DNA of 64,000 nucleotides from Paenibacillus albidus (lineage in GTDB: Bacteria; Bacillota; Bacilli; Paenibacillales; Paenibacillaceae), in assembly GCF_014644435.1 (NCBI RefSeq), contig NZ_BMKR01000009.1, forward strand, positions 124,001-188,000, read 5' to 3'. Under the pieces are notes generated by a model. It was given only the letters and a program-made list of their open reading frames with translations. It had not been told where the DNA came from and searched no databases. This document shows, one piece after another, positions 34,418-51,381 of this stretch. Position numbers and translations under genes: made by a program. How positions within the stretch are numbered: the stretch's first letter is position 1; each line of letters opens with the position of its first letter.

Positions 34418-36447
34418 AGATTCACCACTCCAACGCTTTGAATTTCAATATTCGGTTCCAGTTCACTGTAGGACAACACCGGTATATCCTGCATGGTCCG
34501 CTCAATGACTTGGCGCAGATACATGCGGATGGTTGGTGAAGTCAGCAGAATGGGCTGCTGCCCGGACTGCAGCAAACGGTTAATCTGCTCGGTGAGCCGT
34601 TGGTATACTGTCTGCGTAGACACCGGATCAAGCGCCAGATAACTTCCTTGCTCCGATTGTTGTACACTTTCAGAGATTTTCTTTTCCAGTGAAGGACCCA
34701 CAGTAATAACCCGCAGCGTCTCTCCGGCTTGCGAGAATTGCTGGGTAATCTGTCTGGACAAGGATTGCCTTACATATTCGGTAAGAATGTCGGGATCTTT
34801 GGTGTAGGTTCCATAATCGGCAAGCGTTTCGAATATAGTGACCAGATCCCGGATGGATATTTTCTCCCGCAGCAGCTTGCCGAGCACTTTTTGAACATCT
34901 CCGACCGCCAGTACGGAAGGGATCAGTTCGTCGACCAGAACAGGGTAATTCTCCCGAAGATTGTCGATAAGCATCTTGGTTTCCTGACGTCCCAGCAATT
35001 CATGTCCATACCGTTTGATCAATTCGGTCAAATGTGTAGCTACAACAGAAGGCGGATCGACAACGGTATAGCCCGATAACTCAGCCCGTTCCTTAACAGA
35101 TTCATCAATCCACAAGGCAGGAAGTCCAAAAGATGGTTCCACAGTCTCAATTCCGTTGATGGAATCATCATCATAGCCGGGACTCATGGCCAGGTAGTGA
35201 TTAAGTAATAATTCACCACCGCCGACGTTATTCCCTTTAATTTTGATGACATATTCATTCGGTTTTAGTTGAATATTGTCGCGAATTCGGATAACAGGGA
35301 CAACAAGTCCCATCTCCAGGGCACATTGGCGCCGGATCATGATGATGCGGTCCAGTAAATCGCCACCCTGACCCGTATCTGCGAGTGGAATAAGACCGTA
35401 ACCGAATTCAAATTCGATGGGATCAACCGACAACAGATTGATGACACTTTCCGGACTGCGCACCTCTTCAATCTGTTTCTCTTCTACAAGCTGTTCCTCG
35501 GCAATCTGCTTGCGGTTCATGTTTTGTCCCATACTGTAGGCGGCATAGGCCAGCAGACCTGCCAGAGGAAGTGTAGTAATCGCATGAATCGGTGTGAAAA
35601 GTCCCAGCATCGCTACAGTAGCTGCAACAATGTATAACAGCTTGGGATACGACATTAACTGCCCTGTCAAATCCTCTGCAAGGTTCCCTTCAGAGGAAGC
35701 CCGGGTAACGATCAGACCTGCAGCTGTAGAGATAAGCAGAGCAGGAATTTGGCTGACCAGACCATCCCCGATGGTTAGAATCGAATAGGTAGAAAGTGCA
35801 TCCGCAAACTCCATGCTGTGAACTACCATACCGATAATAAACCCACCGATCAGGTTAATCAGCAGGATGATGATACTGGCAATGGCATCCCCCTTTACAA
35901 ACTTACTGGCACCATCCATTGCTCCAAAAAAGTCCGCTTCCCGCTCCACGCTGCGGCGGCGCTCCCGGGCCTGCTGCTCGTTGATCATGCCCGCATTCAA
36001 ATCAGCATCAATACTCATCTGCTTACCGGGCATTGCGTCTAGAGTAAATCTCGCTCCCACTTCCGCTACCCGCTCCGAGCCCTTGGTGATAACAATAAAC
36101 TGGACCACGACCAGAATCAGAAAGACGATAAAGCCGATCGCGATTTCCCCGCCGGCTACCCAGCTTCCGAAAGTGGCAACTACCGAACCCGCTTCCCCGT
36201 CTGAAAGAATCAGTTTGGTGGTAGAGATGTTCAACGCCAATCGAAACAAGGTCGTAATCAATAACAGTGACGGAAATATCGAGAACTGCAGTGCATCCTT
36301 TGTATTCATAGCCACCAGAATAATTGTCAACGCCAAAGCAATGTTAACAACGAGCAAAATATCCAACAGCCATGACGGGATAGGCAGAATCATCATAAGC
36401 ACAATACCGATGATACCGATTAATACTGTTAAATCTTTAGCTTTCAA
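34414..36447 (-). CDS. flhA: Flagellar export gate protein FlhA
   Basis: FlhA forms the nonameric export gate with its cytoplasmic docking ring. The 677-residue protein has seven or eight membrane segments in the first 320 residues, the FHIPEP-family core (FPSLLLITTLFRLALNISTT; GSERVAEVGARFTLDAMPGKQ split across the loop), and a cytoplasmic domain of about 340 residues. It starts with TTG (36447) after GGGGAGG. It follows flhB by 20 bases. Confidence 0.97.
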   Translation of the reverse strand: MKAKDLTVLIGIIGIVLMMILPIPSWLLDILLVVNIALALTIILVAMNTKDALQFSIFPSLLLITTLFRLALNISTTKLILSDGEAGSVVATFGSWVAGGEIAIGFIVFLILVVVQFIVITKGSERVAEVGARFTLDAMPGKQMSIDADLNAGMINEQQARERRRSVEREADFFGAMDGASKFVKGDAIASIIILLINLIGGFIIGMVVHSMEFADALSTYSILTIGDGLVSQIPALLISTAAGLIVTRASSEGNLAEDLTGQLMSYPKLLYIVAATVAMLGLFTPIHAITTLPLAGLLAYAAYSMGQNMNRKQIAEEQLVEEKQIEEVRSPESVINLLSVDPIEFEFGYGLIPLADTGQGGDLLDRIIMIRRQCALEMGLVVPVIRIRDNIQLKPNEYVIKIKGNNVGGGELLLNHYLAMSPGYDDDSINGIETVEPSFGLPALWIDESVKERAELSGYTVVDPPSVVATHLTELIKRYGHELLGRQETKMLIDNLRENYPVLVDELIPSVLAVGDVQKVLGKLLREKISIRDLVTIFETLADYGTYTKDPDILTEYVRQSLSRQITQQFSQAGETLRVITVGPSLEKKISESVQQSEQGSYLALDPVSTQTVYQRLTEQINRLLQSGQQPILLTSPTIRMYLRQVIERTMQDIPVLSYSELEPNIEIQSVGVVNL

Positions 36448-36467
36448 ATGTCCCGAACCTCCCCGTC

Positions 36468-37562
36468 TTATCTCCTCTTACCTTTGAGCTTATATACATA
36501 TGCCAGCACCTCGGCGACAGCCTGGAACAGATCAGCCGGTACCACATCGCCGATTTCTGCCCTTTGAAACAGCGCCCGTGCCAGCGGTTTGTTTTCCATA
36601 GTTATAACGCCATGCTCTTTAGCAAGCGCTCTGATTCGGAGGGCTACATGGTCTTGACCCTTCGCGATAATTTCAGGCGCATCCATTTTAGAGCCGTCAT
36701 ATTTCAGCGCGACCGCAAAGTGAGTCGGGTTCGTGATAATAACGTCTGCATTAGGAACTTCCTGCATCATTCTCTGCATAGCCATTCTGCGCTGGCGTTC
36801 TCTGATCTTGCCTTTAATTAGAGGGTCACCCTCCATTTTTTTATACTCGTCTTTAATGTCTTGCTTTGACATTTTCAAGCTCTTCTCATGCTCATATTTC
36901 TGATAATAATAATCAAATATTGCCAGTATAATTAATGCGACAGCAATTTTCATCCCTAGACTCATGGTTAAATCGGCAGCAAACTGATAAACCCCTTCAA
37001 CACTGGAATGAGATAAGGAAGAAAAACTTTTCCTCTCTCCCCAAAGTGTCGAATAAACCAGATAACCGATTAGAAGCAATTTGAAGATAGATTTCAAAAA
37101 CTCTACAAATGACCTCATAGAAAAAATATTTTTCAAACCTTTAATTGGATCGAGTTTACTGAACTTGGGCATCAGTCCCTCTCCGGTAGTCATAAAACCA
37201 ACTTGAAACACATTGATGATCACCGCAATAACAAAAGTAATCGCAAATAAAGGAACTAGCAAAATCAAGATTTGTAGGCCATACTGGCTAAAAAGCTGCA
37301 TTACATTCTCAGATGTGACTTCCATCATCATGCGATTCTGAAATACGTCCATATAAAGTACAATAAATCGTTCCTTCATATATCCACCGAACATCATCAA
37401 ACTAAGCATCGCCGACAACAGCACCGTAGCTCCTGACAATTCGGCACTTTTAGCCACTTGACCCTTTTTACGTGCCTCCTGTCGCTTTTTAGGAGTGGCT
37501 TTTTCTGTTTTTTCACCTGCAAAATGTTGTAGGTCGAGCCTGTAACGCTTCGCTTGTAGCAT
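36468..37562 (-). CDS. flhB: Flagellar export switch protein FlhB
   Basis: FlhB controls the change from hook to filament export. The 364-residue protein has four membrane segments and a cytoplasmic domain with the self-cleavage motif NPTH at 278-281. The N-terminus QHFAGEKTEKATPKKRQEAR is typical. The ATG at 37562 follows AGGGAG by eight bases; an in-frame extension to 37586 was rejected. Codon use here looks more A+T-rich than in the neighbouring che genes. Confidence 0.97.
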   Translation of the reverse strand: MLQAKRYRLDLQHFAGEKTEKATPKKRQEARKKGQVAKSAELSGATVLLSAMLSLMMFGGYMKERFIVLYMDVFQNRMMMEVTSENVMQLFSQYGLQILILLVPLFAITFVIAVIINVFQVGFMTTGEGLMPKFSKLDPIKGLKNIFSMRSFVEFLKSIFKLLLIGYLVYSTLWGERKSFSSLSHSSVEGVYQFAADLTMSLGMKIAVALIILAIFDYYYQKYEHEKSLKMSKQDIKDEYKKMEGDPLIKGKIRERQRRMAMQRMMQEVPNADVIITNPTHFAVALKYDGSKMDAPEIIAKGQDHVALRIRALAKEHGVITMENKPLARALFQRAEIGDVVPADLFQAVAEVLAYVYKLKGKRR

Positions 37563-37586
37563 AATACGCACTCCCTTGCAGGGCAC

Positions 37587-38378
37587 CTATGGACTATTGC
37601 CGATGAGCTTCAGTAAATGGTGCATGGATTCAAACATAATATCAAAAAGGTTCTGGAACAGCACAGCCATACCTGGCATAAGCACTAACAGTAACGCGAG
37701 CCCCACCACAATCTTTAGTGGGACACCGATAACAAAAACATTATACTGGGGTGCCGTTCGGGCCAGGAATGCCAGTCCGATATCTGTCAGGAATAGGGCG
37801 GTCACCAGAGGGGCAGCCAACTGAAAGGCGAGAACAAGCGATTGTGCAAATGTGCGGGCCAAAAACTCTGAAAGGCTTCCGTCTATCATTTTGAGAAACA
37901 TATCATTATTAATGGGGATCCACTTGTAACTGCTCACAATAGCATCTAGCAGATGATGATGACCATTCATACTCAGAAAAAGAAGCAAGGCAATCATATA
38001 TTTAAAGTTGCCAAGTATAGGTGAAGAAGCTCCGGTCATAGGATCAATTACATTCGCCATCCCAAACCCGATTTGAATATCAATGAAGGAACCCGCTCCC
38101 TGGATGACCATCATCATGAGAAAAGCGATAAATCCAAGCAATAAACCGATAAGAACCTCTCTGACTATCAGCAAAACATAACTGAGATCCTGAGGAACCG
38201 TATATCCTGCACCTTCCGCACTGAAAACTATTAAAGACACAAAAAAAGATATACCTATTTTAAAAGTGTTCGGCACTCCTTTTGAAGAAAAAACAGGAAC
38301 GACAACAAAAAAGGCTGTAATTCGACAAAAAATTAACAGAAAGACGGGGAAACTTTGCAATAAGTTATCCATGTTCAT
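37587..38378 (-). CDS. fliR: Flagellar export protein FliR
   Basis: Membrane component of the FliPQR export channel. The 263-residue protein has six hydrophobic segments; the family core is visible in FCRITAFFVVVPVFSSKGVP and FIDIQIGFGMANVIDPMTGA. Its ATG immediately follows the fliQ stop codon (TAGATG). Confidence 0.96.
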   Translation of the reverse strand: MNMDNLLQSFPVFLLIFCRITAFFVVVPVFSSKGVPNTFKIGISFFVSLIVFSAEGAGYTVPQDLSYVLLIVREVLIGLLLGFIAFLMMMVIQGAGSFIDIQIGFGMANVIDPMTGASSPILGNFKYMIALLLFLSMNGHHHLLDAIVSSYKWIPINNDMFLKMIDGSLSEFLARTFAQSLVLAFQLAAPLVTALFLTDIGLAFLARTAPQYNVFVIGVPLKIVVGLALLLVLMPGMAVLFQNLFDIMFESMHHLLKLIGNSP

Positions 38379-38648
38379 CTAACCGATGTAAAGATGCAGA
38401 TTCCCCAATATTTGGCTCGTGAAGTCAACCAACTTCGTGATGATCCAGGGGCCAAAAATGAGTAAAGCCAGCATAACTGCAACGATTTTCGGTATAAATG
38501 CCAAAGTTTGCTCTTGAATTTGTGTCGTTGCCTGAAAAATACTGATAATCAGTCCTACCACCAGACCAAGAATCAGCATGGGAGCACTGGTTTCCAGTGT
38601 TATATATACGGCTTGGCCTGCAAGGCCGATAATAAACTCCGTATTCAT
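38379..38648 (-). CDS. fliQ: Flagellar export protein FliQ
   Basis: Small channel component of the FliPQR complex. The 89-residue protein has two membrane helices separated by the polar ATTQIQEQTLAFIPKI segment, which is the family signature. Length is normal. Confidence 0.96.
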   Translation of the reverse strand: MNTEFIIGLAGQAVYITLETSAPMLILGLVVGLIISIFQATTQIQEQTLAFIPKIVAVMLALLIFGPWIITKLVDFTSQILGNLHLYIG

Positions 38649-38671
38649 CCCTTATGCCTCCTCTAATGAAA

Positions 38672-39433
38672 TCAGGTGCTAAAACTAAGTAACAATGATT
38701 TAATGACCAAGTACCAGCCGTCCACCAGTACAAAGAGCATTATTTTGAAAGGCAAAGATATCATTACCGGCGGGAGCATCATCATCCCCATTGCCATAAG
38801 GGTACTTGCCACTACAATATCAATTACCAAAAATGGAATGAAAATGAGAAAACCCATTTGAAATGCAGTTTTTAATTCACTAACAGCAAATGCGGGCACG
38901 AGTACAGTCAGGGGAATATCCTTAAAAGTTGCAGGCTTTGCATCTCCTGTGTAACCTGTATAATTCATAAACAATAATAGTTCTTTGGTATGCGTATGCT
39001 TGAACATAAATTCCTTCATTGGTAAGGCTGCTTTGTCAAGTGCTTCGGACTGGCTGATAGTTCCCTTCATATAAGGCTGAAGTGCCGTCTCGTTCACAGT
39101 TGCAAGCGTAGGCGACATAATAAAGAGAGTCATAAACAGCGCAAGTCCTACCAGAACCTGATTCGGAGGCATGGATGCCGTACCGAGTGAGGTTCTTATA
39201 AAACCCAAGACGATCACAATCCGGGTGAAGCTGGTCATCAATACCATAAATGCAGGGGCGATGCTCAGCACCGTAACAAGAAGCAAGATGGAAACGGAAC
39301 TGGTCCCCCCGCTGGTCCCCTCTTCGCCTATCTGAATATTAATATTCGGTATAGGCTCGGCATGAATCGGGTGAATCGTCAAAGCACTGATAAACCCGAA
39401 TATCAGAAAAGCAAAAATCAGCTTTTTTTTCAT
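38672..39433 (-). CDS. fliP: Flagellar export protein FliP
   Basis: Core of the export channel. The 253-residue protein has a cleavable signal peptide (about 1-25, KKKLIFAFLIFGF then IHAEP) and four membrane helices. Signatures include MTSFTRIVIVLGFIRTSLGT, PPNQVLVGLALFMTLFIM and the C-terminal MGMMMLPPVMISLPFKIMLF. Its start overlaps the fliO stop codon (ATGA). Confidence 0.97.
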   Translation of the reverse strand: MKKKLIFAFLIFGFISALTIHPIHAEPIPNINIQIGEEGTSGGTSSVSILLLVTVLSIAPAFMVLMTSFTRIVIVLGFIRTSLGTASMPPNQVLVGLALFMTLFIMSPTLATVNETALQPYMKGTISQSEALDKAALPMKEFMFKHTHTKELLLFMNYTGYTGDAKPATFKDIPLTVLVPAFAVSELKTAFQMGFLIFIPFLVIDIVVASTLMAMGMMMLPPVMISLPFKIMLFVLVDGWYLVIKSLLLSFST

Positions 39434-39957
39434 AAATCCCTCGACTCATTCCTGGCGGTATCTTCCCGGAGCAGCTCATCAATTTTCTCTTTACGCTCAG
39501 GGGCTTGGGCAAGCTTGTTCTGCAATGTTTCGTAAAAGGAAGTATTCTCGCTAAGTTCGATTTCCTGAGAGGGTACCTCCCCGCGCAGCTTGGCTCTAAT
39601 CTTGGAAACAAGCGGAACGAGGAAGTTATTCCGGCTGGAAGTCTGTTCTTCGAACGCCGCAATAATCAGGGCAACCTCATCCGGATCGGTCACTTTGTCG
39701 AGAAGGGATATATTCTCTCCCACCCCGACTAAATACAGGCTGCTGCCGAGTTCAATCACCTGAAGCGATTTGTTGGGCCCGAGGCCCATCGCCCCAAGCG
39801 TACGAATGGAGCGCCCGCTCATCAGGGTCTGGTTGCGGCGGCCGAGAAAACGGATCAGCAGCACGATCAGCACAACGATCACAGCAAGGACAATAATAAC
39901 GTTCATTAAGTTCAGCAGGGTGTTGTTGCTTCCGAACGGTTCGGAATTGCCTGACAT
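39430..39957 (-). CDS. fliO: Flagellar biosynthesis protein FliO
   Basis: FliO helps FliP assemble in the membrane. The 175-residue protein has one membrane helix (about 16-38) followed by a cytoplasmic domain with LGPNKSLQVIELGSSLYLVGV, which is typical of FliO/FliZ. The tail (about 120-175) is charged and probably flexible. It is encoded between cheY and fliP. Confidence 0.93.
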   Translation of the reverse strand: MSGNSEPFGSNNTLLNLMNVIIVLAVIVVLIVLLIRFLGRRNQTLMSGRSIRTLGAMGLGPNKSLQVIELGSSLYLVGVGENISLLDKVTDPDEVALIIAAFEEQTSSRNNFLVPLVSKIRAKLRGEVPSQEIELSENTSFYETLQNKLAQAPERKEKIDELLREDTARNESRDL

Positions 39958-39966
39958 GTTTTCCCT

Positions 39967-40332
39967 CTATACGCCCAGTGTTTTGTTAATTGCTTCAACT
40001 ACACGATCCGCCTGGAAAGGCTTCACGATAAAGTCTTTCGCGCCTGCTTGAATCGCATCGATAACCATAGCCTGCTGGCCCATGGCTGAACACATGATGA
40101 CTTTAGCGTTGGCGTCCACTTTTTTGATTTCTTTCAAGGCGGCGATTCCGTCCATTTCAGGCATGGTTATATCCATCGTGATCAGGTCCGGACGCAGCTC
40201 CTTAAATTTCTCAATAGCCTGAGAACCATCTTGAGCTTCACCTACCACTTCAAATCCGTTCTTCGACAAAATGTCCCGGATCATCATTCTCATAAATGCT
40301 GCATCGTCCACGATTAGAATTCGGTTAGCCAT
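39967..40332 (-). CDS. cheY: Chemotaxis response regulator CheY
   Basis: Single-domain receiver that, when phosphorylated by CheA, binds the flagellar switch. The 120-residue protein has the acidic pair in LIVDDAAFM, phospho-acceptor Asp54 (ITMDITMPEM), the CSAMGQQ Ser/Thr region and Lys in FIVKPF. The ATG at 40332 follows GGGAGG by eleven bases; the longer ORF overlapping fliY was rejected. Confidence 0.97.
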   Translation of the reverse strand: MANRILIVDDAAFMRMMIRDILSKNGFEVVGEAQDGSQAIEKFKELRPDLITMDITMPEMDGIAALKEIKKVDANAKVIMCSAMGQQAMVIDAIQAGAKDFIVKPFQADRVVEAINKTLGV

Positions 40333-40358
40333 TTTTACAAAATCCTCCCTAAGTATGC

Positions 40359-41660
40359 TTATTGTAATTTTTGAATTCGGTCCCACTGGCTGACGATATC
40401 TGTAACGCGAACTCCGAAGTTTTCGTCGATAACTACGACTTCCCCTTTGGCAATAAGCTTGTTGTTCACCAAAATGTCTACGGGCTCACCGGCCAGCTTG
40501 TCCAGCTCAATAATCGAACCTTGGGACATTTCCAGTATATCTTTAATCTGCTTCTGGGTCCTTCCTAATTCTACGGTGACTCTCAGTGGAATGTCCATCA
40601 ATAAATTTAAATTATTTTCATCAATATTACCAAAACTGCCATTACTTAAATTGGCAAATTGTACGGGCTGCACATTCACATTCCGGTTAGGCACGGAGTT
40701 AGGCGGTGGAGCTTGTCCGTATGGCATTCCCTGCGGTGGCATGCCATACGGTGGCATCCCGTAACCAGGCATTCCTGCAGGCGGATAATAGTACCCTCCT
40801 TCCGGCATTCCCGGATACGGAGGCATCGGTTGCCCTTGCGGCGGATATCCCGGAGGCTGATCCCCTGCGGGCTGCTGAGGTGCCTGCTGAGCTGGCGGCG
40901 CTTGTGGCGCAGGTGTTTGGGCAGGCGTCGGAGTTGGCGCCTCTACAGTCCCTACAGCGGCCTCCTGATCGCTTGCACTTACATCTCCAAGAAGCATGGT
41001 TACCATGTCTTTGGCAAATTGCACCGGCAAAAGCTGCATAATCGTTGAATCGATTAAATCTCCAATTTTGAGACGGAAAGAAATCTGAATCAGTGTCTCA
41101 TCATCCGGCAGGCTGCCTACCCCTTCTCCACTGGACATATTGAGAATATCAATGCCCGGAGGAGAGATATTGACAAACCGGTTAAAAATGGTCGACATAG
41201 AGGTTGCAGAGGAACCCATCATTTGATTCATCGCTTCCTGAACGGCACTGATATGTATTTCATTCAGTTCCTCGTCCTTCGGATCCCCTTCACCGCCCAG
41301 CATTAAATCGGCAATGACCTGCGCATCCCTGATTCTGATCACAAGGGAATTGATTCCTTGAAACCCGTCCACATATTGCACATGAACAGCTACATGCGGT
41401 TTGGGAAACGCCTCTTCAAACTGCCCCCGCGTAATGATAGATACCTGCGGTGTAGTAATATCCACCTTTTTTCCCAGCAAGGTCGAGAGTGCAGTCGCTG
41501 CACTTCCGAAGGTTATATTGCCGATTTCCCCCAGCGCATCCTGCTCAAATGGAGTCAGGTAATCATCAACCGACTTCTCCGAAGGAGCCAGGGAGCCCTC
41601 AGCGGATTGTTTAAGAAGGGCGTCGATTTCTTCCTGGGATAAATAATCTTTACTCGTCAA
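40359..41660 (-). CDS. fliY: Flagellar switch phosphatase FliY with a long Pro/Gly/Tyr-rich linker
   Basis: FliY is the Gram-positive switch protein that combines a CheC-like CheY-P phosphatase with a FliN domain. The 433-residue protein has an N-terminal CheY-binding motif (LSQEEIDALL), a CheC-type domain with LGEIGNITFGSAATAL and VQEAMNQMMGSSATSM, a linker of about 100 residues rich in Pro, Gln, Gly, Met and Tyr (about 235-335), and a C-terminal FliN domain (MDIPLRVTVELGRTQKQIKD). The TTG at 41660 follows AAGGAG by nine bases and overlaps the end of fliM by 11 bases. Confidence 0.95.
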   Translation of the reverse strand: MTSKDYLSQEEIDALLKQSAEGSLAPSEKSVDDYLTPFEQDALGEIGNITFGSAATALSTLLGKKVDITTPQVSIITRGQFEEAFPKPHVAVHVQYVDGFQGINSLVIRIRDAQVIADLMLGGEGDPKDEELNEIHISAVQEAMNQMMGSSATSMSTIFNRFVNISPPGIDILNMSSGEGVGSLPDDETLIQISFRLKIGDLIDSTIMQLLPVQFAKDMVTMLLGDVSASDQEAAVGTVEAPTPTPAQTPAPQAPPAQQAPQQPAGDQPPGYPPQGQPMPPYPGMPEGGYYYPPAGMPGYGMPPYGMPPQGMPYGQAPPPNSVPNRNVNVQPVQFANLSNGSFGNIDENNLNLLMDIPLRVTVELGRTQKQIKDILEMSQGSIIELDKLAGEPVDILVNNKLIAKGEVVVIDENFGVRVTDIVSQWDRIQKLQ

Positions 41661-42648
41661 ATTCTTCAACTCCTTCACTGACAATCTCGTCTATTTGTAC
41701 AGCCACCCGATCCTTGATCATACCCGGGCTTCCGATGAACTTCAGCTTATCCCCGACCTTAATGGATAGACCTGACTCCACTGTTTTATTCAGCGAAATC
41801 ACGTCGCCTACACTTAGTCCCAAAAATTCAGCTATGGACAGCCTGGATTCCCCAAGCTCGGCCACCACTGGCAGCTTTGCCTTATGCACATTTGCCCTGA
41901 TGGCTTCAAGTTCTCCTTCGTCCCGAGTTTTCTTTTCGGAAACAAACCACTGGTGAACTGACAGCCTGGACATAATAGGTTCGAGAACCACATGCGGGAT
42001 ACAGAGATTGATCATTCCCGTGGTATCGCCAATCTTGGTGCTTAAGGAGATAAGGGCAATGGTCTCATTTGGGGACACGATCTGCATAAATTGCGGATTG
42101 GTCTCCAGTGCCTCCATACGCGGTTCAATATCCAGTACCATTTTCCACGCCTCTTGAAGGCTTTCAAAACATCTGCTAAAGATACGCTCCATAATTGTCG
42201 TTTCAATTTCGGTTAATGCGTTGATTTTTGAAGGAGCAGTCCCGAACCCACCCAGCAGCCTGTCCAGCATGGCAAACGCGATATTGGGGTGAACCTCCAT
42301 GACCATACGGCCTTCCAGGGGCTCCGCTTCAAAAATATTAAGAATCGTCATTTTGGGGATGGAGCGTATAAACTCATCATAAGGGAGCTGCTCCACCTGA
42401 ACGACATTGATCTGCACAAAGGTACGTAATTGGGCTGAAAAGTACGTAGTAAGATAGCGGGCAAAGTTGTCATGAATCCGTGTAAGACTGCGGATATGAT
42501 CTTTGGAGAAACGCACAGCCCGTTTGAAGTCATAAGCGCGAACTTTTTTCTGAGTTTCTTCTTTTTTTAGTTCATCAGCATCCATTTCTCCGGATGAAAG
42601 TGCAGCAAGCAGTGCATCAATTTCGTTTTGTGAAAGTACATCAACCAA
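41650..42648 (-). CDS. fliM: Flagellar motor switch protein FliM
   Basis: FliM forms the C-ring and binds CheY-P. The 332-residue protein has the N-terminal CheY-binding motif LSQNEIDALL, a central CheC-like domain without catalytic residues, and a C-terminal FliN-like domain. DRLLGGFG and LTEIETTIMERIF are typical. It starts with TTG (42648) after GGGGGGTG. Confidence 0.97.
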   Translation of the reverse strand: MVDVLSQNEIDALLAALSSGEMDADELKKEETQKKVRAYDFKRAVRFSKDHIRSLTRIHDNFARYLTTYFSAQLRTFVQINVVQVEQLPYDEFIRSIPKMTILNIFEAEPLEGRMVMEVHPNIAFAMLDRLLGGFGTAPSKINALTEIETTIMERIFSRCFESLQEAWKMVLDIEPRMEALETNPQFMQIVSPNETIALISLSTKIGDTTGMINLCIPHVVLEPIMSRLSVHQWFVSEKKTRDEGELEAIRANVHKAKLPVVAELGESRLSIAEFLGLSVGDVISLNKTVESGLSIKVGDKLKFIGSPGMIKDRVAVQIDEIVSEGVEEFDE

Positions 42649-42687
42649 TTCTTTTCACCCCCCCATCAAAGAATATTCTTAGCTGAT

Positions 42688-43155
42688 CTATATGGTGGCC
42701 AAGACAAATTCAGTCAGCTCGATCTGGGTCAATTTTCCTTCGGTCAAGGTCTTATTAATGATATTAATAAGCTTGCTGCTGAACTGATCCTTACCTTTGG
42801 AACCGTTAAGTTCTTCCGGCTTGGTATCTGCGAGGGTCTTGATCAAAATCGGCTTGATTTTAAAATCTTTGATTTTCTCAAATTCTTCTTTGGCTTTTAC
42901 GGAATCCAACTGGAACGCGAAATCTATTGAAGCGATATAATCGGGATCGGCAAGATTAGTTTTGATATCCAAGATCTCTGCTGTCAGTTCGACGATTTCG
43001 TCGGCCGTAAGATGCTTGGCTTCTACGTTCTGCACAGCTTGATTCACTTCGCTTGTATCGCCTGGGAAGATTTTGTCCATTAATAGAAATGCGGCTACTA
43101 CAATGAGTGTAATTGCCAGCAAAATCGTAATGAGCCACGGCAGCATCTTTTTCAT
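42688..43155 (-). CDS. fliL: Flagellar basal body-associated protein FliL
   Basis: FliL is a single-pass membrane protein around the stator. The 155-residue protein has an N-terminal membrane helix (about 6-27) and an extracytoplasmic SPFH/stomatin-like domain containing DEIVELTAEILDIKTNLADP and ending LIQIELTEF-like residues (KLTQIELTEFVLATI). The ATG overlaps the swrD stop codon (ATGA). Confidence 0.92.
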   Translation of the reverse strand: MKKMLPWLITILLAITLIVVAAFLLMDKIFPGDTSEVNQAVQNVEAKHLTADEIVELTAEILDIKTNLADPDYIASIDFAFQLDSVKAKEEFEKIKDFKIKPILIKTLADTKPEELNGSKGKDQFSSKLINIINKTLTEGKLTQIELTEFVLATI

Positions 43156-43376
43156 GATAGCTCCTCCATCGATTGGACTTTTATGGTGGCAGCATATGTG
43201 CCAATGTCCCTGTTGTAATTGCGGATTTTCGTAATAACCTCATCGGCTTTTTCCAGCACGATCAATCTTTTGCCCGTTACCAGTGTAATGTAAGTATCAG
43301 GACTTTCCTCGACCATTTCCACCAGCAGGGCATTCAGCCACATGGGTGTACCGTTTAATCTTGTTACCGAAATCAT
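43152..43376 (-). CDS. swrD: FlbD-family protein SwrD
   Basis: A 74-residue protein of the FlbD/YlzI family; B. subtilis SwrD increases motor torque. Signatures are MISVTRLNGTPMWLNALLVE and DTYITLVTGKRLIVLEK. The open frame extends to 43475, but the ATG at 43376 is six bases after GGAGG and matches the family size. That GGAGG lies only a few bases after the intrinsic terminator at 43392-43419. Confidence 0.94.
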   Translation of the reverse strand: MISVTRLNGTPMWLNALLVEMVEESPDTYITLVTGKRLIVLEKADEVITKIRNYNRDIGTYAATIKVQSMEELS

Positions 43377-43391
43377 AACAGGCCTCCTAAC

Positions 43392-43419
43392 AAAAAATAG
43401 GGGGAGGAGAACCTCCCCC
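43392..43419 (-). terminator. Perfect intrinsic terminator inside the fla/che operon
   Basis: GGGGGAGG and CCTCCCCC (43412-43419 with 43400-43407) form an 8-bp perfect GC-rich stem with a 4-base loop, followed by TA and six U. It lies between flgE and swrD. No promoter fits in the few bases before the swrD ribosome binding site, so swrD to sigD depend on readthrough or antitermination. The 3' arm CCUCC could also pair with the swrD GGAGG (43382-43386). Confidence 0.88.
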
Positions 43420-43498
43420 AAGACTCCATAATAATGCGTTCTCGGAAGTTCCGAAAAACGTTTATTATCCAGCAAACTTATATATTATGGTTCAAGGC

Positions 43499-44317
43499 TT
43501 AACGCTTGAGGTTAACAACTTCTTGAAGGATTTCATCGGAAGTTGTAATAATCCGGGAATTCGCCTGGAATCCGCGTTGGGATACGATCATCTCCGTAAA
43601 TTCGCCTGTAAGATCCACATTGGACATTTCAAGCTGTCCGGCTACGATTGCTCCGGTGCCTGCTTCTGTGTTGTTCGCGGTAGTCGGCACAAGCTCACCG
43701 TCAGCATTCGCATTCAAGGTCATGCGGAACAGATTGCCGCCGATTTTTTCCAGACCCTGTGGATTGGTGATCTTGGCTACACCGATGAGAACCCCTGGCT
43801 CGGTTGTGCCATCTGCCATAGTCTGTATAATCGTTCCGTCCGATGAGATAGAGAATGCTGTAACCTCTTCCGCCAACTGGATGTTCTCGCCTTCAGAGCT
43901 CAGAACATGCATTCCATCGGAAGTCAGGAGATTACGTGCCGCATCCACATGGAAGTCGCCGGCACGTGTCAGGAATGGCGTTTCCTGATCTTCGGAGAGC
44001 CGCACAAGGAAGTATCCGTCACCGTCAATCCGCAGATCGGTAGGGTTATTGGTTGTCATCGCACTGCCTGCCAAGTGAAGAGTATCAATGGAGCCAATGC
44101 TGACCCCCAGCCCGATTTGCTTGGCATTCACCCCGCCTTGACCGTCATCATTAGGTGCTGTCACCCCGGATACGGTCTGGCTCATGATATCCTTGAACAT
44201 TACCCGGCCGGATTTGAAGCCGATTGTATTAACGTTGGCAATGTTATTACCGATCACATCCAGCTTGGTTTGAAAACCGCGCATACCTGAAACTCCCGAG
44301 TACATGGATCTTAACAT
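43499..44317 (-). CDS. flgE: Flagellar hook protein FlgE
   Basis: FlgE polymerises into the hook. The 272-residue protein has the rod/hook N-terminal signature SGVSGMRGFQTKLDVIGNNI with NVNTIGFKSGR, and the C-terminal SNVDLTGEFTEMIVSQRGFQ with NSRIITTSDEILQ. At this length it corresponds to the short hook protein of Bacillales (called FlgG in older annotations). A 118-base untranslated region precedes it, with a GC-rich hairpin (44383-44388 with 44401-44406), and an intrinsic terminator follows. Confidence 0.95.
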   Translation of the reverse strand: MLRSMYSGVSGMRGFQTKLDVIGNNIANVNTIGFKSGRVMFKDIMSQTVSGVTAPNDDGQGGVNAKQIGLGVSIGSIDTLHLAGSAMTTNNPTDLRIDGDGYFLVRLSEDQETPFLTRAGDFHVDAARNLLTSDGMHVLSSEGENIQLAEEVTAFSISSDGTIIQTMADGTTEPGVLIGVAKITNPQGLEKIGGNLFRMTLNANADGELVPTTANNTEAGTGAIVAGQLEMSNVDLTGEFTEMIVSQRGFQANSRIITTSDEILQEVVNLKR

Positions 44318-44435
44318 TATTGTTGTCCTCCCAGATTATGAAATCTATTGTTTATTTGATACAACTTGAAGATTGAGGATTGGACCGCGTCAGTCGGTCG
44401 GCGGTCACCCCGGCTCTCCGTTAGGACCGGCCGGA

Positions 44436-44819
44436 TCAAGAAATAATAACAGCACTGTCTATTTGCGTGAATACATTATCTTTCATGGATTTCCCATCCA
44501 TAGCGGTTACAACCGTACGATTGGGTATACTCACAATCAAAGCCATGTCATGCATTAAGATTAAAGATTCCTTACTTCCTTTAGCTGCTGCTTTGTCCAC
44601 AGCCGAAGATATCTGATCCAATTGGCTGCTGCCCAGCTCAATGCCTCTTTGCTCCAGCCGTTTGGCGGCATGGGTGCTGAACTTGAGCATATTTTTATGC
44701 AGCAGGCTTTCAAAGGAGGCTTCGGGCACATTCGAGCCCTTCGCAGCTGCCGGGCGCTTGAGTACCGATGGGTGAACGGACGATGGATATAATTGGCCTA
44801 TGGTCAGCCTCTCATTCAT
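44436..44819 (-). CDS. Conserved flagellar operon protein, TIGR02530 type
   Basis: A 127-residue soluble protein. The core FSTHAAKRLEQRGIELGSSQ and the C-terminal IVSIPNRTVVTAMDG match the conserved flagellar-operon family TIGR02530, found between flgD and flgE in many Firmicutes; its function is not established. The ATG overlaps flgD by four bases (ATGA). Confidence 0.9.
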   Translation of the reverse strand: MNERLTIGQLYPSSVHPSVLKRPAAAKGSNVPEASFESLLHKNMLKFSTHAAKRLEQRGIELGSSQLDQISSAVDKAAAKGSKESLILMHDMALIVSIPNRTVVTAMDGKSMKDNVFTQIDSAVIIS

Positions 44820-45310
44820 GATGTTGCACCGCTCTCTCCCTGTTCCTCTGAGGTTACAGGCTCTCCGTTTGCTTTATTGTCCACGGCAGCATCCTGAATC
44901 TGTGTGATGTCCGTTAAGGCAATCCGTTCACTGCCTACAACTGCATACTGAATGCCACTGTTTATCACAATAGAGCCAACTGTACCTGACTTCGGCAGCT
45001 TGGTAGCAACATCTGTCCAGGTCACATCCTTGCCGATCAGTCCGGATACAGCACCAAGGGATTGATTCATTGCCGTGAGTTGGGTAGATATATTCATCAG
45101 CTGCTCTACTGAAGAGAACTGGGCCATTTGGGCGATAAATTCTTTATCCTCCATAGGCTGCATGGGGTCCTGATTCTGCAGCTGTGTAATCAGGATCTTC
45201 AGGAACTGGTCTTTCCCCAAAGTTGAGTTTCCGGTTGTTTTGCTGGTGGAGTTATCCTTCACCTCATAATTCCATTGGTCGCTGCTAGATACTGGAATCG
45301 TATTCGTCAT
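44816..45310 (-). CDS. flgD: Flagellar hook assembly (capping) protein FlgD
   Basis: FlgD caps the growing hook so FlgE can assemble. The 164-residue protein has the N-terminal signature LGKDQFLKILITQLQNQDPM and MEDKEFIAQMAQFSSVEQL. The C-terminal domain is short, as in Bacillales. The ATG at 45310 is six bases after GAGGTG; the upstream in-frame ATG at 45319 is too close to that site. It follows fliK. Confidence 0.95.
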   Translation of the reverse strand: MTNTIPVSSSDQWNYEVKDNSTSKTTGNSTLGKDQFLKILITQLQNQDPMQPMEDKEFIAQMAQFSSVEQLMNISTQLTAMNQSLGAVSGLIGKDVTWTDVATKLPKSGTVGSIVINSGIQYAVVGSERIALTDITQIQDAAVDNKANGEPVTSEEQGESGATS

Positions 45311-45330
45311 ATCATTCACCTCACTTGTTG

Positions 45331-46773
45331 TTAAGCTCTCGCAGAAAAGGATCCGCCTTGATTAGAAGCCTCCTGCTGTGCGTTTGTTACCCATTCCTTC
45401 CATTCACCACTTAGCTCTGCGGTAAGTACTGCCTCACTTGCTTCCTCGCCACGCTCTTTGGAACGTCTGTCCTGCTTTTGTCCCCCAGCACCCGGCTGTC
45501 GTCCTTCCTGGCCAAACTGGGATTGCAGAGGCGTATTGTTCTGTGTCACTTCCAATTTTTCAACCTGCAGACCTTGAGATTGCAAAGCAGCTCTTAGCTG
45601 ATTCATTTGCTGCTCAAGCAAGTCTTTGGCTCCGGCATGCTCGGTCAGGAATTGAGCTACTAAGTGGCCATTTTGCATTGTAATCTTCACATCTACTTGC
45701 CCAAGATTCTCTGGGAACAAAGTGATAATCGCTTCAGCAACCCCGCCCTTTTTAACAATTTCCAGCTTACCAGTTATAAAACTGTTCATCTCATTGGCAA
45801 ATTGTTGAACAGGAACAGGTACTTGCCGAACTTCTGCTTTTAATGGAGCAGTGATTCCCTCACGCATGATTAATTGACCTGCAGTTACCACTTCTTGTTC
45901 ATCCGAACCAGAGCCGATTTGAGGCGTAACCTCATCTTGAACAGCAGTTCCCTTAACCATCTCAACCGTGGCGGCTGTTTTATTACTCAAAGGTGCAGTA
46001 ACTTCCGTATCCGTCAGGGCTTTCTCAGTAGAAGCATTTGCCGATACAGCTAGTTCATTTTTTGAAGCAGCCAAGTCAGTTCGTACATTTAAGGAATTCA
46101 CCATTTTGGGCTTTTCCTCAACGTTCTCTTCACTCGAGGTAACTTGGACTACAGACATATTCGTGGAATCGGTCCCATTGGCATTTTTCGCCTTGTTTCT
46201 ACTCTCTGCCACCGCCGGCTTCTGTTCCAGGAATGCCGGGAAATTATTCAGCACAGCAATTCCCTTGGCTGTAAGCTCCTCATTACCTTCGGAAGCAGCT
46301 TTCTGAACGAGGGTTACGAGACTGTTTAGTTCATCTTGTACAGCAAAGCGAATAGTTTCCGGATTCTGAGCAATAAAGGACAGACCTTCAGTTGCTTGTC
46401 CCCCACTTGTCAACAACAGTGATGATACTTCCAGCAGCCAGCTTTGCAATGCTTCAAGCATAACGGGATCACTGCTGATTTTGTCATCGAGCAGCTCGAT
46501 ATCTTGGGTCAGATCTTTAAGGAGATCGGCTTTGGAAGCCTCTTTGCCCTCTTCCCCTTCACTCGCAGTCTGAACTTGACTCAGCAGACCTTGCAACAAG
46601 GATGCCAGATTTCCCATTAAAGGGGCGGCAGCTGCCTTACCGGTGTCTGCACCCATAATCTGCACTAGCGTCTGGGCAAAAGGAATTCCAGTCACCGCAC
46701 CGGTGGTCGTACCAGTAGCCCCGGTAGTTGGCAACGCATTTGCATTTGAAAGTGTTTGTACAATTAAACTCAT
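45331..46773 (-). CDS. fliK: Flagellar hook-length control protein FliK
   Basis: FliK is secreted, measures hook length and triggers the FlhB switch. The 480-residue protein has a long, poorly conserved, Thr/Ser/Ala-rich N-terminal part and the conserved C-terminal domain at about 325-415 (LFPENLGQVDVKITMQNGHL, then LREQL-like LRAALQSQGLQVEKLEV). A Gln/Arg/Lys-rich tail follows. It lies between the MotE-like gene and flgD. Confidence 0.94.
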   Translation of the reverse strand: MSLIVQTLSNANALPTTGATGTTTGAVTGIPFAQTLVQIMGADTGKAAAAPLMGNLASLLQGLLSQVQTASEGEEGKEASKADLLKDLTQDIELLDDKISSDPVMLEALQSWLLEVSSLLLTSGGQATEGLSFIAQNPETIRFAVQDELNSLVTLVQKAASEGNEELTAKGIAVLNNFPAFLEQKPAVAESRNKAKNANGTDSTNMSVVQVTSSEENVEEKPKMVNSLNVRTDLAASKNELAVSANASTEKALTDTEVTAPLSNKTAATVEMVKGTAVQDEVTPQIGSGSDEQEVVTAGQLIMREGITAPLKAEVRQVPVPVQQFANEMNSFITGKLEIVKKGGVAEAIITLFPENLGQVDVKITMQNGHLVAQFLTEHAGAKDLLEQQMNQLRAALQSQGLQVEKLEVTQNNTPLQSQFGQEGRQPGAGGQKQDRRSKERGEEASEAVLTAELSGEWKEWVTNAQQEASNQGGSFSARA

Positions 46774-46797
46774 CTATTTTTCACCTCCTCTCAAAAT

Positions 46798-47742
46798 CTA
46801 TTTACCACCCATTAAACGATTGACAATTTTTGCTGTTTGAGCCGGGTCATTTTGAGTCATTTCCCCCAATATAGAGGAACGCACCGTGTCACTGACCGTA
46901 TTCATGATGGTAATCACCTTATCCGGACTAATCTTGTACATTTCCCCAAGCAAGGAAGCTGCATTGGCTGCCGGCATGGACGTGAAGGTTTGGTTCAACT
47001 TTTCCTTATCCAGATTGGCGCTTGTCGCAGCCGCTGCGGTTGTTGTTGTCCCCGCATCTTTTTTCAACCGGGATTGAAGGGCTGCAATAGCCATATCGGT
47101 AGAAGTGGTGTTTTCCTTTAGCTTTATTGACACTTCAGCAGCTTTTTTGGTGTCCATTTTTTCCAGAATGGCCATTTTACTTGCATTACTCATTACACTA
47201 AAAATTTGAACCATTTCCTCGGTGGTTAAATTCTCCATTATAGGCGCTGCTTTGGAAGCTTTCATTCCGCCATATAGCTTGGCCAAATCCTTAACCTGCT
47301 TCTGGTAGTCGTCTTCTGTTTCTGCCGGAACGGCTTCCTCGGCGGCTTTGGCTTCTTCCTTCATATCTTCGACAGTCGTCTGCAGTGCCTGAACCTCAGC
47401 ATCTTTGGCTGCCTTCTCTTCAGTTACTTTCTTAAGACTTGTTTCCTTCTCCGCCAATTGAGCCTTTAGCTCTTTAATCGTTGTCTCAGAGCTTGCTTCC
47501 TGCTTTTCCTCTTGGTCCTTGGGATCGGCAGCCGGATCACCGGGCGGGTCGGGGACCCATTTCTCGACAATAGGGATCTTGTTCGCAACCTGAAGCACAT
47601 TATTGCGAATGTCCATATTAAAAAGGGTTAGCAGGACTCCAAGCAGCACAAGCGTAAATATGATCGGAATCATTAAAAATAAAAACCGTTCCAATTTCCC
47701 CGTTGACTCTTCCTTTTCAAATTCCACATCATTATTAGCCAC
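46798..47742 (-). CDS. MotE/YlxF-like protein with a MgtE_N-type domain
   Basis: The 314-residue protein has one membrane helix (about 20-44), a coiled coil (about 80-145) and a C-terminal helical domain resembling the MgtE intracellular N domain, with LAKLYGGMKASKAAPIMENL and MSNASKMAILEKMDTKKAAE. It occupies the ylxF position between fliJ and fliK. Proteins of this type (MotE) act as stator chaperones in other bacteria; that role here is inference. Confidence 0.88.
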   Translation of the reverse strand: MANNDVEFEKEESTGKLERFLFLMIPIIFTLVLLGVLLTLFNMDIRNNVLQVANKIPIVEKWVPDPPGDPAADPKDQEEKQEASSETTIKELKAQLAEKETSLKKVTEEKAAKDAEVQALQTTVEDMKEEAKAAEEAVPAETEDDYQKQVKDLAKLYGGMKASKAAPIMENLTTEEMVQIFSVMSNASKMAILEKMDTKKAAEVSIKLKENTTSTDMAIAALQSRLKKDAGTTTTAAAATSANLDKEKLNQTFTSMPAANAASLLGEMYKISPDKVITIMNTVSDTVRSSILGEMTQNDPAQTAKIVNRLMGGK

Positions 47743-47760
47743 TAGCGGAAACCTCCCGTG

Positions 47761-48204
47761 TTAGAGGGATTTCATCGCGAAGCGGACGGTAGCTATCTCA
47801 TCCAGTTCGTTTTGTTCCCGTAAAATCATATTTTGCTGAAACAGGTTTAAGGCTTTATCTTTTGCTTTCAGCCAAACCTTTTCATCGAGCATTTTTGTGT
47901 TGAGATGATCCTGCTTTTTCTGGACCTCTCTATGTGCCAGATTAATATCCTGAAGTTTGCGTGTTATGCATTTATCCAGATAATCAACATACTCCTGCAT
48001 TTCACGAATCTTCGACATCGGTGTTTTTTGTTCAGTCGCATTCTGTAAGGAGGTGATCATCGCACTCCGTTGAACAGTCAAATCTTCAAGGCTTCTTTCC
48101 TGTGCCTGCAATTCTCCAAGGGCAGTTGAGAGCATCCATTCAGCCTGTGTTTTTTCGTTGCCCTTCAAATCTACCACTTTTTGAAAAGTATAATGAAATC
48201 TCAC
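47761..48204 (-). CDS. fliJ: Flagellar export chaperone FliJ
   Basis: FliJ is the coiled-coil stalk of the FliI ATPase ring. The 147-residue protein is predicted to be almost all alpha-helical coiled coil and starts RFHYTFQKVVDLKGNEKTQA, typical of the family. It directly follows fliI. Confidence 0.93.
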   Translation of the reverse strand: MRFHYTFQKVVDLKGNEKTQAEWMLSTALGELQAQERSLEDLTVQRSAMITSLQNATEQKTPMSKIREMQEYVDYLDKCITRKLQDINLAHREVQKKQDHLNTKMLDEKVWLKAKDKALNLFQQNMILREQNELDEIATVRFAMKSL

Positions 48205-48213
48205 GATACAGAA

Positions 48214-49527
48214 TCAACTCCTAGAGAACTGATTAATTAATGCTTGTTGGACTTCAGCCAGCGTCACTTTCTCATTCACTTTTTGCTTGGTGAACTCCCA
48301 AATACTGTCGATATAATGGATGGACTCATCAATATGGGCATTGGAACCTCTTTGATAGGCCCCGATATTAATTAAATCTTCCGAATCCTTGTAGACGGCC
48401 ATGAGCCGTTTCACATTTTCGGCAGCCTCAATCTGGTCCTCTGGAGCAATATCCTTCATAACACGGCTAATACTGGCAAGGACATCGATGGCTGGAAAAT
48501 GGCCTTTATTGGCGATGCTCCGATTCAGTACGATATGTCCATCCAGAATCCCCCGGACCGCATCTGCAATGGGTTCATTCATATCGTCACCGTCAACGAG
48601 CACTGTATAAAAAGCGGTAATGGAGCCGGTCGGACCGGTTCCGGCCCGTTCCAGAAGTTTGGGCAAACTTGCGAAAACGGAAGGGGTATACCCTCTCATT
48701 GCAGGCGGTTCACCTACTGCAAGTCCCACTTCCCGCTGAGCCATGGCATACCGTGTAACCGAGTCCATCATCAGCATGACGTTAAGTCCCCGATCCCGGA
48801 AATACTCAGCGATTGTTGTTGCAATCAGCGCCCCTTTGATACGTATCAGAGCTGGTTGATCCGAGGTAGCCACTATGACAACAGAACGCTGCAGGCCCTC
48901 AGGGCCAAGATCTCTTTCAATAAAATCAAGGACCTCTCTGCCCCGTTCTCCAATCAGTGCAATGACGTTTACGTCAGCAGCAGTATTTCGGGCGATCATT
49001 CCCATGAGTGTGCTTTTTCCGACGCCCGAACCTGCAAAGATTCCTACACGCTGGCCTTTGCCTATAGTCAGGAGTCCATCTATCGCTCTTACACCAATAC
49101 TGATCGGTTCATGTACCCGCGGACGTTTTAACGGATTGGACGGGATATTAAAGGTTGAACTGTGCGGCATCCGGGCCGGGATCAGGGAACCGTCAAGCGG
49201 TTGACCCAAACCATCCAATATTTTCCCCAGCAGCTCGGATCCGACCTGTACGCTCAGCGGTTTGCCTGTCCCTACGACATCACAGCCGGGACCTATCGCC
49301 TGTAATTCTCCAAGCGGCATAAGCAGTACTTTGTTATCGCGAAATCCAACAACCTCTGCCTGAAGAGGTTTGTTGCCTTTCGTTGGATAGATGTAACAGA
49401 CATCGCCGATACTCGCATCAGGTCCTTCCGACTCAACCATCAGACCAATAACCTGGGTGACTTTACCGTTGATTCTTACCGGATCGAAATTCCGCAACTG
49501 TTCTCTGTAACGTCTGCTATCAAGCAT
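48214..49527 (-). CDS. fliI: Flagellum-specific ATPase FliI
   Basis: FliI drives early steps of flagellar export. The 437-residue protein is related to F1 beta: Walker A AGSGVGKS at 165-172, GERGREVLDFIERDLG, Walker B LMMDSVTRYAMAQREVGLA and the PPAMRGYTPSVF segment. The ATG at 49527 follows GGAGAAGAGG and overlaps the fliH end by eight bases (ATGCTTGA). The longer frame to 49617 lies in fliH and was rejected. Confidence 0.96.
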   Translation of the reverse strand: MLDSRRYREQLRNFDPVRINGKVTQVIGLMVESEGPDASIGDVCYIYPTKGNKPLQAEVVGFRDNKVLLMPLGELQAIGPGCDVVGTGKPLSVQVGSELLGKILDGLGQPLDGSLIPARMPHSSTFNIPSNPLKRPRVHEPISIGVRAIDGLLTIGKGQRVGIFAGSGVGKSTLMGMIARNTAADVNVIALIGERGREVLDFIERDLGPEGLQRSVVIVATSDQPALIRIKGALIATTIAEYFRDRGLNVMLMMDSVTRYAMAQREVGLAVGEPPAMRGYTPSVFASLPKLLERAGTGPTGSITAFYTVLVDGDDMNEPIADAVRGILDGHIVLNRSIANKGHFPAIDVLASISRVMKDIAPEDQIEAAENVKRLMAVYKDSEDLINIGAYQRGSNAHIDESIHYIDSIWEFTKQKVNEKVTLAEVQQALINQFSRS

Positions 49528-50368
49528 CCTCTTCTCCATTTCTGTGCTCCTCGGTGTCCAATGCGATCCTAACCAGCTCTTTTTTGATTTCAGCAAGCTG
49601 GGTATCGATGCGGGCATCTATGCTTCCAAAGGAAGAGCGGATTACACAACCGAGGTCCCTTACCGTCGAGTCCGGTAAAATTTGCAGCTCGGCCTGCGAA
49701 TCCACCGCAAGTGCAAGTTCTTCACGTGCCGCATTGACAAAGGTGAACTGGGCGGGTGATACGCATAAGGATATCAATCCCTGCTCGCGTTTACGGGCCA
49801 GATTCTTACGGATTAACTCCATCGCAAACTGGGGCTCAACGGTCAATTGCCTGTCCACAATCTTCTCGGCAATATCACAGCTTAACTCGACCAGAAAGGG
49901 CTCCGCTTCCTGAATAATAACCTCTCTTGCTTTATAAGCCTCTTGTAATACCGTTCTTGCTTCTTCCATCATCTCGGAGATTTTTTGCCTCATTTCAATT
50001 TCAGCCTGCGAGACGCCTTCCTGATACCCTTCCTGAAACGCCTCGGATTTGACAGCTTCGACCAGATGCTCATCCTGCTCCCGGCGTTGCCGCCACCATT
50101 CTTCCGCTTCTGCCCGTGCTGACTCCACAATCGTCTCCGCTTCCAGCGAGGCATTCCTAACTTGCTCTTCCGCAAATTCCTGTGCATCCTTGAGCATCTG
50201 CTTACGGGTTTCTTCCGCAGCTTCACGGGCGTGATCCTGAACATGGATTTCTCCCACAGCTTCCTCTGAAGCAGAATTCTCAGTGAGCCCGGCATAATAC
50301 CGGGCCTGCTCCAGCCTTTTCAGAACATCCACCGGAACATATTGGGAGTGTTTGATCAGCTTAGACAA
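49520..50368 (-). CDS. fliH: Flagellar assembly protein FliH
   Basis: FliH is the peripheral stalk-like regulator of FliI. The 282-residue protein has a long Ala/Glu/Gln-rich coiled coil (about 45-170) with AFQEGYQEGVSQAE, and a C-terminal domain (about 180-270) with SSFGSIDARIDTQLAEIKKE. The TTG at 50368 is nine bases after GGAG and overlaps the fliG end by eight bases (TTGTCTAA). A GTG at 50389 is an alternative start. Confidence 0.93.
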   Translation of the reverse strand: MSKLIKHSQYVPVDVLKRLEQARYYAGLTENSASEEAVGEIHVQDHAREAAEETRKQMLKDAQEFAEEQVRNASLEAETIVESARAEAEEWWRQRREQDEHLVEAVKSEAFQEGYQEGVSQAEIEMRQKISEMMEEARTVLQEAYKAREVIIQEAEPFLVELSCDIAEKIVDRQLTVEPQFAMELIRKNLARKREQGLISLCVSPAQFTFVNAAREELALAVDSQAELQILPDSTVRDLGCVIRSSFGSIDARIDTQLAEIKKELVRIALDTEEHRNGEEDA

Positions 50369-51377: not shown

Positions 51378-51381
51378 TACC

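Follow-up and report, generated by a model that had tools for sequence, protein, structure and literature searches.

A conserved hairpin between flgE and swrD in the flagellar operon of Paenibacillus albidus and its relatives, a candidate boundary behind the hook gene

The Bacillus-type flagellar operon is one transcript whose genes are needed in very different amounts, and a stable hairpin between two of these genes raises the question of what the structure does there. In a 64,000-nucleotide stretch of Paenibacillus albidus DNA, hereafter the window, flgE (hook/rod domains) is followed by swrD and fliL, and the same strand continues downstream with genes for FliM, a FliY-type protein, FlhA (FHIPEP), CheA, CheC, CheD and a sigma-70 factor. 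We count 20 ORFs on the minus strand in the ORF lists from swrD to that sigma factor. The original prediction had named these flanking and downstream flagellar, chemotaxis and sigma-factor genes correctly; it had also placed an intrinsic terminator between flgE and swrD and proposed that it could separate hook expression from expression of the motor, chemotaxis and sigma-factor genes. The features of the junction are listed in Table 1.

Table 1 Features of the flgE-swrD junction (positions in the window)
Feature	Position	Strand	Evidence
H2, conserved hairpin, 8-bp stem GGGGGAGG/CCTCCCCC, loop TTCT	43400..43419	-	Fold; genus model match; covariation
Spacer TATTTTTTG, terminator-like U-tract, lineage-specific	43391..43399	-	Sequence; T counts in genus versus other hairpins
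AGGAGG, swrD Shine-Dalgarno (SD) sequence	43383..43388	-	Sequence; SD 7-14 nt from the hairpin in 92 genus loci
H1, dispensable accessory stem-loop upstream of H2 in the near clade	43428..43468	-	Fold; alignment of 39 near-clade gaps
swrD (FlbD family), 74 aa, start ATG 43376	43152..43376	-	PF06289 FlbD, 9.3e-26; relatives share the start residues
flgE (hook gene), 272 aa; its stop codon delimits the gap	43499..44317	-	Flg_bbr_C, FlgE/F/G D1 and Flg_bb_rod domains

The gap between the flgE stop codon (end at 43499) and the swrD ATG (43376) is 122 nt long on the minus strand, and the GC-rich 8-bp stem, four-base loop and six U that had been described there were all present at 43419-43392. Read 5' to 3' on the minus strand, the 5' arm (43419-43412), the loop (43411-43408) and the 3' arm (43407-43400) of H2 are followed by TA, six T (43397-43392), GTT, AGGAGG (43388-43383), CCTGTT and the ATG. 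As RNA, an uninterrupted 8-bp stem, GGGGGAGG-UUCU-CCUCCCCC, precedes UAUUUUUUGUU, AGGAGG and the start codon. The folding energy of 43419-43381 was -18.2 kcal/mol, and an equally good fold was obtained in 13 of 200 dinucleotide shuffles of these 39 nt (z -1.67); judged by composition alone, the stability of H2 is not extreme. For the longer segment 43498-43369, 4 of 200 dinucleotide shuffles folded as well (z -2.51). Seven of the eight pairs in H2 are G-C, the highest number among 23 terminator-like sites in 33000-52900, and over the two strands of the 64 kb H2 obtained the top d'Aubenton-Carafa-type score, a crude measure that considers uninterrupted stems only. The whole list of terminator-like sites was not in excess over shuffles (23 versus 19.1, sd 4.8), and the same scan gave 34 promoter-like sites versus 27.0; because these counts are near the shuffle level, both scans are uninformative as a group. 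The pattern GGGGAGG-N3-8-CCTCCCC occurred once in the 7.67-Mb genome, as did a control with the pattern reversed, and the window had no match at gathering scores to any of 4227 Rfam families. A model designated R1 matched its own genome at H2 with an E value of 2.6e-21; the next of 50 matches was far weaker (1.2e-4), and the idea of an H2 regulon was dropped. The real evidence that H2 exceeds chance lies in its conservation.

Conservation was assessed across distinct flgE-swrD junctions, after removal of identical ones, of loci in which no neighbouring flgE was detected and of gaps longer than 300 nt. A strong hairpin (score of at least 19) was found in 222 of 267 junctions: 86/95 in the genus, 51/58 in the family, 32/51 in other Bacilli, 33/38 among named records and 20/25 in other classes of the phylum. 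The remaining 45 had no hairpin at this threshold. Control stretches of 70 nt, which are not length-matched to gaps of up to 300 nt, contained such hairpins in 5 of 191 cases before flgE, 13 of 237 after swrD and 41 of 801 at random positions within flgE. Against length-matched shuffles, the hairpin z exceeded 2 in 55 of 98 genus entries, among which the window counts two times, in 41 of 63 family entries, which include three from the genus, and in 27 of 48 other entries (5 skipped), counts for which the finder sometimes took another stem, such as H1; the genus was later recounted by separate reading. Among operon junctions, compared in 20 loci of 20 kb, 47 named loci and the window, the flgE-swrD hairpin reached a score of at least 19 in 61 of 68, versus 0 or 1 for each other junction, many of which are too short for a hairpin. 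Gaps of at least 25 nt in all loci were found at fliE-fliF, ylxG2-flgE and fliL-fliM; of these, fliL-fliM had a strong hairpin in 0 of 56 loci and ylxG2-flgE in only 1 of 36. The gap before flgE, at least 25 nt in all 36 loci with a median of 88 nt, is unusually long in the window as well (44318-44435, 118 nt), and the hook gene is set apart from the operon on both sides.

SwrD was present in 99 of 100 genomes of the genus, P. albidus included, and 97 genus junctions were read (our own and 96 others; G069, G070 and G089, the last without a match, were left out). A hairpin with a purine-rich 5' arm lay 5' of the swrD SD in 92 of these 97 loci, and a model built from 40 of these same sequences gave full-length matches in 92 of 97. 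Rearranged gaps of 179-246 nt characterise the five exceptions (L052, L058, L060, L062 and L063). Three of them, L060, L062 and L063, form a subclade in which the conserved hairpin was lost or displaced by an insertion, and, within the last 20 nt before swrD, CTCCTTATTAGGAG puts the SD itself into a small hairpin. In wider draws, SwrD was present in all 148 genomes from the family (15 of them from our own genus), in 144 of 200 from the class and in 98 of 149 from the phylum; from these, 60 family loci outside the genus, 53 loci of other Bacilli and 26 of other classes were read, together with 48 named records (L216-L263, most of them Bacillus-type). No strong structure was found before swrD in two Treponema records from beyond the phylum (L276, L284) or in Fervidicella (L282). 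One record, L242, is titled Arthrobacter beigongshangensis REN13 and has a flgE-swrD junction that resembles Sporosarcina; it may be misnamed or contaminated.

Covariation was assessed in an alignment fitted to the structure, with 73 distinct genus rows. Changes on both sides occurred at six of the eight stem pairs, compared to 4.6 in shuffles (reached by 94 of 500), and in 32 cells, compared to 15.6 in shuffles, a count that none of 500 shuffles reached and that fell to 3-18 when partners were slid. Pairing holds in 89.7% of cells (87.1 in shuffles; 0/500 reach), and further pair types had no clear excess over shuffles (113/500 reach). On these counts the H2 stem covaries within the genus, and the expectation of a conserved, covarying hairpin in relatives was borne out.

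By our reading, 12 genus loci whose gaps measure 66-90 nt lack the upstream stem-loop H1, and all 12 have H2. L056 and L059 seem to keep the H1 stem although the letters differ. TATAAT-like letters recur in the flgE-swrD gap of the near clade, but by our reading they sit in the 5' arm of H1, and a promoter in the gap was rejected as a candidate.

If the hairpin here were an intrinsic terminator or attenuator, as the original prediction had it, the downstream genes would need readthrough. The window has the appearance of one, with the uninterrupted GC-rich stem and UUCU loop followed immediately by UAUUUUUUG, upstream of AGGAGG and the swrD ATG, and with the top crude terminator-like score in the 64 kb; the combination of GC-rich stem and U-run is common to intrinsic terminators, the window and part of the genus. 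In B. subtilis, moreover, fla/che transcript is lost toward sigD with the involvement of NusA and NusG, as described in the available part of PMC8060035, where flgE and swrD go unmentioned. Relatives, however, keep the stem without the U-tract. At least five T in the 8 nt after the stem were found in 38 of 86 genus hairpins and in only 6 of 136 outside the genus, so that 48/86 and 130/136, respectively, lack a U-rich tail; counted as T-runs in the 10 nt after the stem, the 97 genus loci had at least five in 36, four in 10 and three or fewer in 51. Even the subclades adjacent to that of the window have tails of TATTTAGG or TATTTATTG. Unlike in intrinsic terminators and attenuators, the U-run is not conserved outside the genus and the site lies mid-operon. 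Strong termination would also be costly, because the 20 downstream ORFs include the motility sigma factor and no promoter was found before swrD; a sigma-70-type scan gave no minus-strand site between H2 and swrD, in agreement with the original statement that there is no room for one. What is conserved is the stem, not the U-run, and intrinsic termination is not supported as the conserved function. Since the stem is kept while the tail is not, the element was not filed as a terminator. The U-tract is lineage-specific, and intrinsic termination is possible in the window's own lineage; as the explanation of the hairpin we consider it unlikely.

A different explanation ties the hairpin to the start of swrD, where, as a standby or bridging structure, it would position and insulate the ribosome-binding site (RBS), with no special role for flgE mRNA. 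Its main support is spacing. Hairpins of the genus, sought 15-45 nt from the ATG, lay 22.1 nt (sd 1.2, n=92) before the AUG, and in the same loci the distance from the flgE stop to the hairpin ranged from 7 to 195 nt. Of the 60 family loci from other genera, 58 had a hairpin, 57 of these 58 had an SD-like run 3' of it, and the median hairpin-to-AUG distance was 21 nt (IQR 20-23); the layout in Paenibacillaceae is hairpin-SD-AUG, with the hairpin about 21-22 nt before the AUG. In other Bacilli, a hairpin above threshold was found in 67 of 93 loci, counts that were not de-duplicated and whose threshold misses interrupted or long-loop stems such as those of L253 and L254; the SD lay 5' of the hairpin in 48, the order was reversed in 16 and 3 were undecided. 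The SD-hairpin-AUG loci have a linear SD-AUG distance of 27-47 nt (median 34), which becomes a median of 6.5 nt when the hairpin is excluded. This layout was seen in B. velezensis, B. spizizenii, B. tequilensis and B. mojavensis, the close relatives by which B. subtilis 168 is represented here, and its SD often overlaps the flgE stop. These loci are candidate split RBSs, as the available portions of the sources describe for phage T4 genes 25 and 38 (PMC3014915) and E. coli thrS (PMC3936740), in which an SD and start codon are joined across a hairpin; the window itself, unlike these, is not split, its SD being 3' of H2 and 6 nt from the ATG. Two hairpin-free loci, L228 (Bacillus sp. WMMC1349) and L229 (B. 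changyiensis), have an SD-like AGGGG at the flgE stop at an ordinary spacing, 8 nt from the swrD GTG, and appear to provide a natural comparison for the split layout. Against this explanation, the stem tracks the flgE stop in other classes of the phylum, starting a median of 12 nt past it, with a loose hairpin-to-AUG distance (IQR 23-74 nt); our early view of a stem tied solely to the swrD start was weakened by these loci. Both layouts can also be read as swrD adapting to a stem that is kept for another reason, and we regard a pure swrD-start role as rather doubtful.

The same region could in principle act as a translational switch, in which the anti-SD-like 3' arm is bound up by the SD-like 5' arm until a ribosome or protein takes the latter, whereupon the 3' arm masks the swrD SD. 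The SD was more open in silico with native than with shuffled hairpins in 85 of 92 loci, and in silico destruction of the 5' arm lowered the mean unpaired SD from 0.48 to 0.16; on these values the stem seems to keep the swrD SD open, an effect that serves the swrD-start explanation and the switch alike. The switch further draws on the purine-rich 5' arm (purine fraction of at least 0.8 in 92 of 97 genus loci, mean 0.77 over 50 unique family hairpins), since only 3 of 40 other strong hairpins in 462 kb reach 0.8, compared to at least 0.75 in 9 of 10 swrD hairpins, and on a complementarity between 3' arm and SD slightly above that of letter-permuted arms (0/500 reach over 92 arms, 8/500 over 27 unique ones, by statistics that ignore the relatedness of loci). 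The masking fold that had been proposed, in which the 3' arm of H2 pairs with GGAGG, does exist, but at -5.6 kcal/mol it is about 12 kcal/mol weaker than the hairpin, and therefore the two folds are far from balanced and a switch between exclusive folds of similar stability is weakly supported. Neither a ligand nor a protein nor a stall site was found, pairing with the SD is poor for some arms (CCCCCC, CCTTCCCC), and we consider a switch very unlikely. CsrA sites carry GGA in a loop; a CsrA-type site at the hairpin was dropped on our reading of the genus loci, in which no loop GGA recurs.

The stem is real and covaries in the genus; among the operon junctions compared it is particular to flgE-swrD, and it occurs phylum-wide with quite different sequences. 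Because the stem is kept and the U-run is not, an expression boundary after the hook gene is more likely than a terminator. The reading that we favor, tentatively and as something just short of probable, is that H2 and its counterparts form a boundary that protects the hook-gene message from 3' decay and limits ribosome run-on into swrD. The long operon mRNA would be cut downstream of the hairpin and 3'-to-5' exonucleases would halt at the stem, so that the flgE part of the message would last longer than the parts for motor and chemotaxis and would yield more hook protein. Lying behind the flgE stop codon, the same stem would also curb ribosomes that continue from flgE into swrD. The swrD start would have adapted to the stem, which would sit just outside the initiating ribosome, as in the hairpin-SD-AUG order of the window, or be looped out between SD and AUG; we infer that the stem is selected for the sake of flgE and that swrD initiation adapts to it. 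The spacer has turned U-rich in the clade of the window and may add partial intrinsic termination. The proposed boundary between hook and motor, chemotaxis and sigma-factor expression is thereby retained as plausible, given a conserved and covarying hairpin at that position, but not by way of conserved termination.

Several observations fit this boundary. A protective hairpin of this kind needs no U-tract but a stable, conserved stem between operon genes, and such a stem was found in 222 of 267 flgE-swrD junctions and, among the operon junctions compared, almost exclusively at this one. Protective hairpins in E. coli bound stabilised operon segments, lack a U-tract and stand behind genes needed in larger amounts, according to the available text of PMC5927463, and the hook consists of about 120 copies of FlgE (PMC4032328, available in part). 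Structure just past a stop codon reduces translational coupling (PMC12548453). The malE-malF protective 3' hairpin of E. coli, as far as the accessible part of PMC5927463 describes it, is likewise a stable hairpin between the gene of an abundant product and its neighbours; the flgE-swrD hairpin differs in that it abuts or sits inside the next RBS and recurs phylum-wide. In the same phylum, the B. subtilis cggR-gapA transcript processed by RNase Y also has an operon-internal hairpin thought to set segment stability (PMC11780869, in the part available), but that hairpin marks the 5' end of the stable product, and flgE-swrD has no known cleavage site.

Other observations count against the boundary. 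The tight distance from stem to swrD start in Paenibacillaceae points to a role for swrD, 45 of 267 junctions have no hairpin at threshold, and the purine/pyrimidine polarity of the arms is left over by simple protection; an SD-related role might explain it. In swarming cells of P. polymyxa, FlbD (SwrD) and FlgE are both up (2.46 and 2.3) and FliL is not (0.59), as given in the available part of PMC6878767; any break in that species therefore lies after swrD and not at the hairpin, a comparison in which the presence of the hairpin in P. polymyxa is assumed.

A stem with two roles is a further, unlikely possibility: one phylum-wide structure would set the lifetime of the hook message and also gate swrD translation, by masking or by split-RBS folding. 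If so, hook production and motor power would be tuned by RNA structure within one transcript. A stem at one junction through much of the phylum, including close relatives of B. subtilis, would offer a handle on hook, motor and sigma-factor levels, and the loci with the SD-hairpin-AUG layout would make up a natural series of split ribosome-binding sites in cellular genes.

A literature search, which excluded subscription papers and supplements, returned no title or abstract describing a flgE-swrD (ylzI) hairpin. The main text of a Paenibacillus transcriptome study (PMC5670726) contains no words beginning flg, fli or flagell, and the available parts of PMC6613710, PMC9936203 and PMC12207403 contain nothing on the flgE-swrD junction. 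At the far end of the flagellar cluster in the window, a FapA-type gene (PF03961, PF20250; 24295-25698, minus strand) lies directly after the sigma-factor gene.
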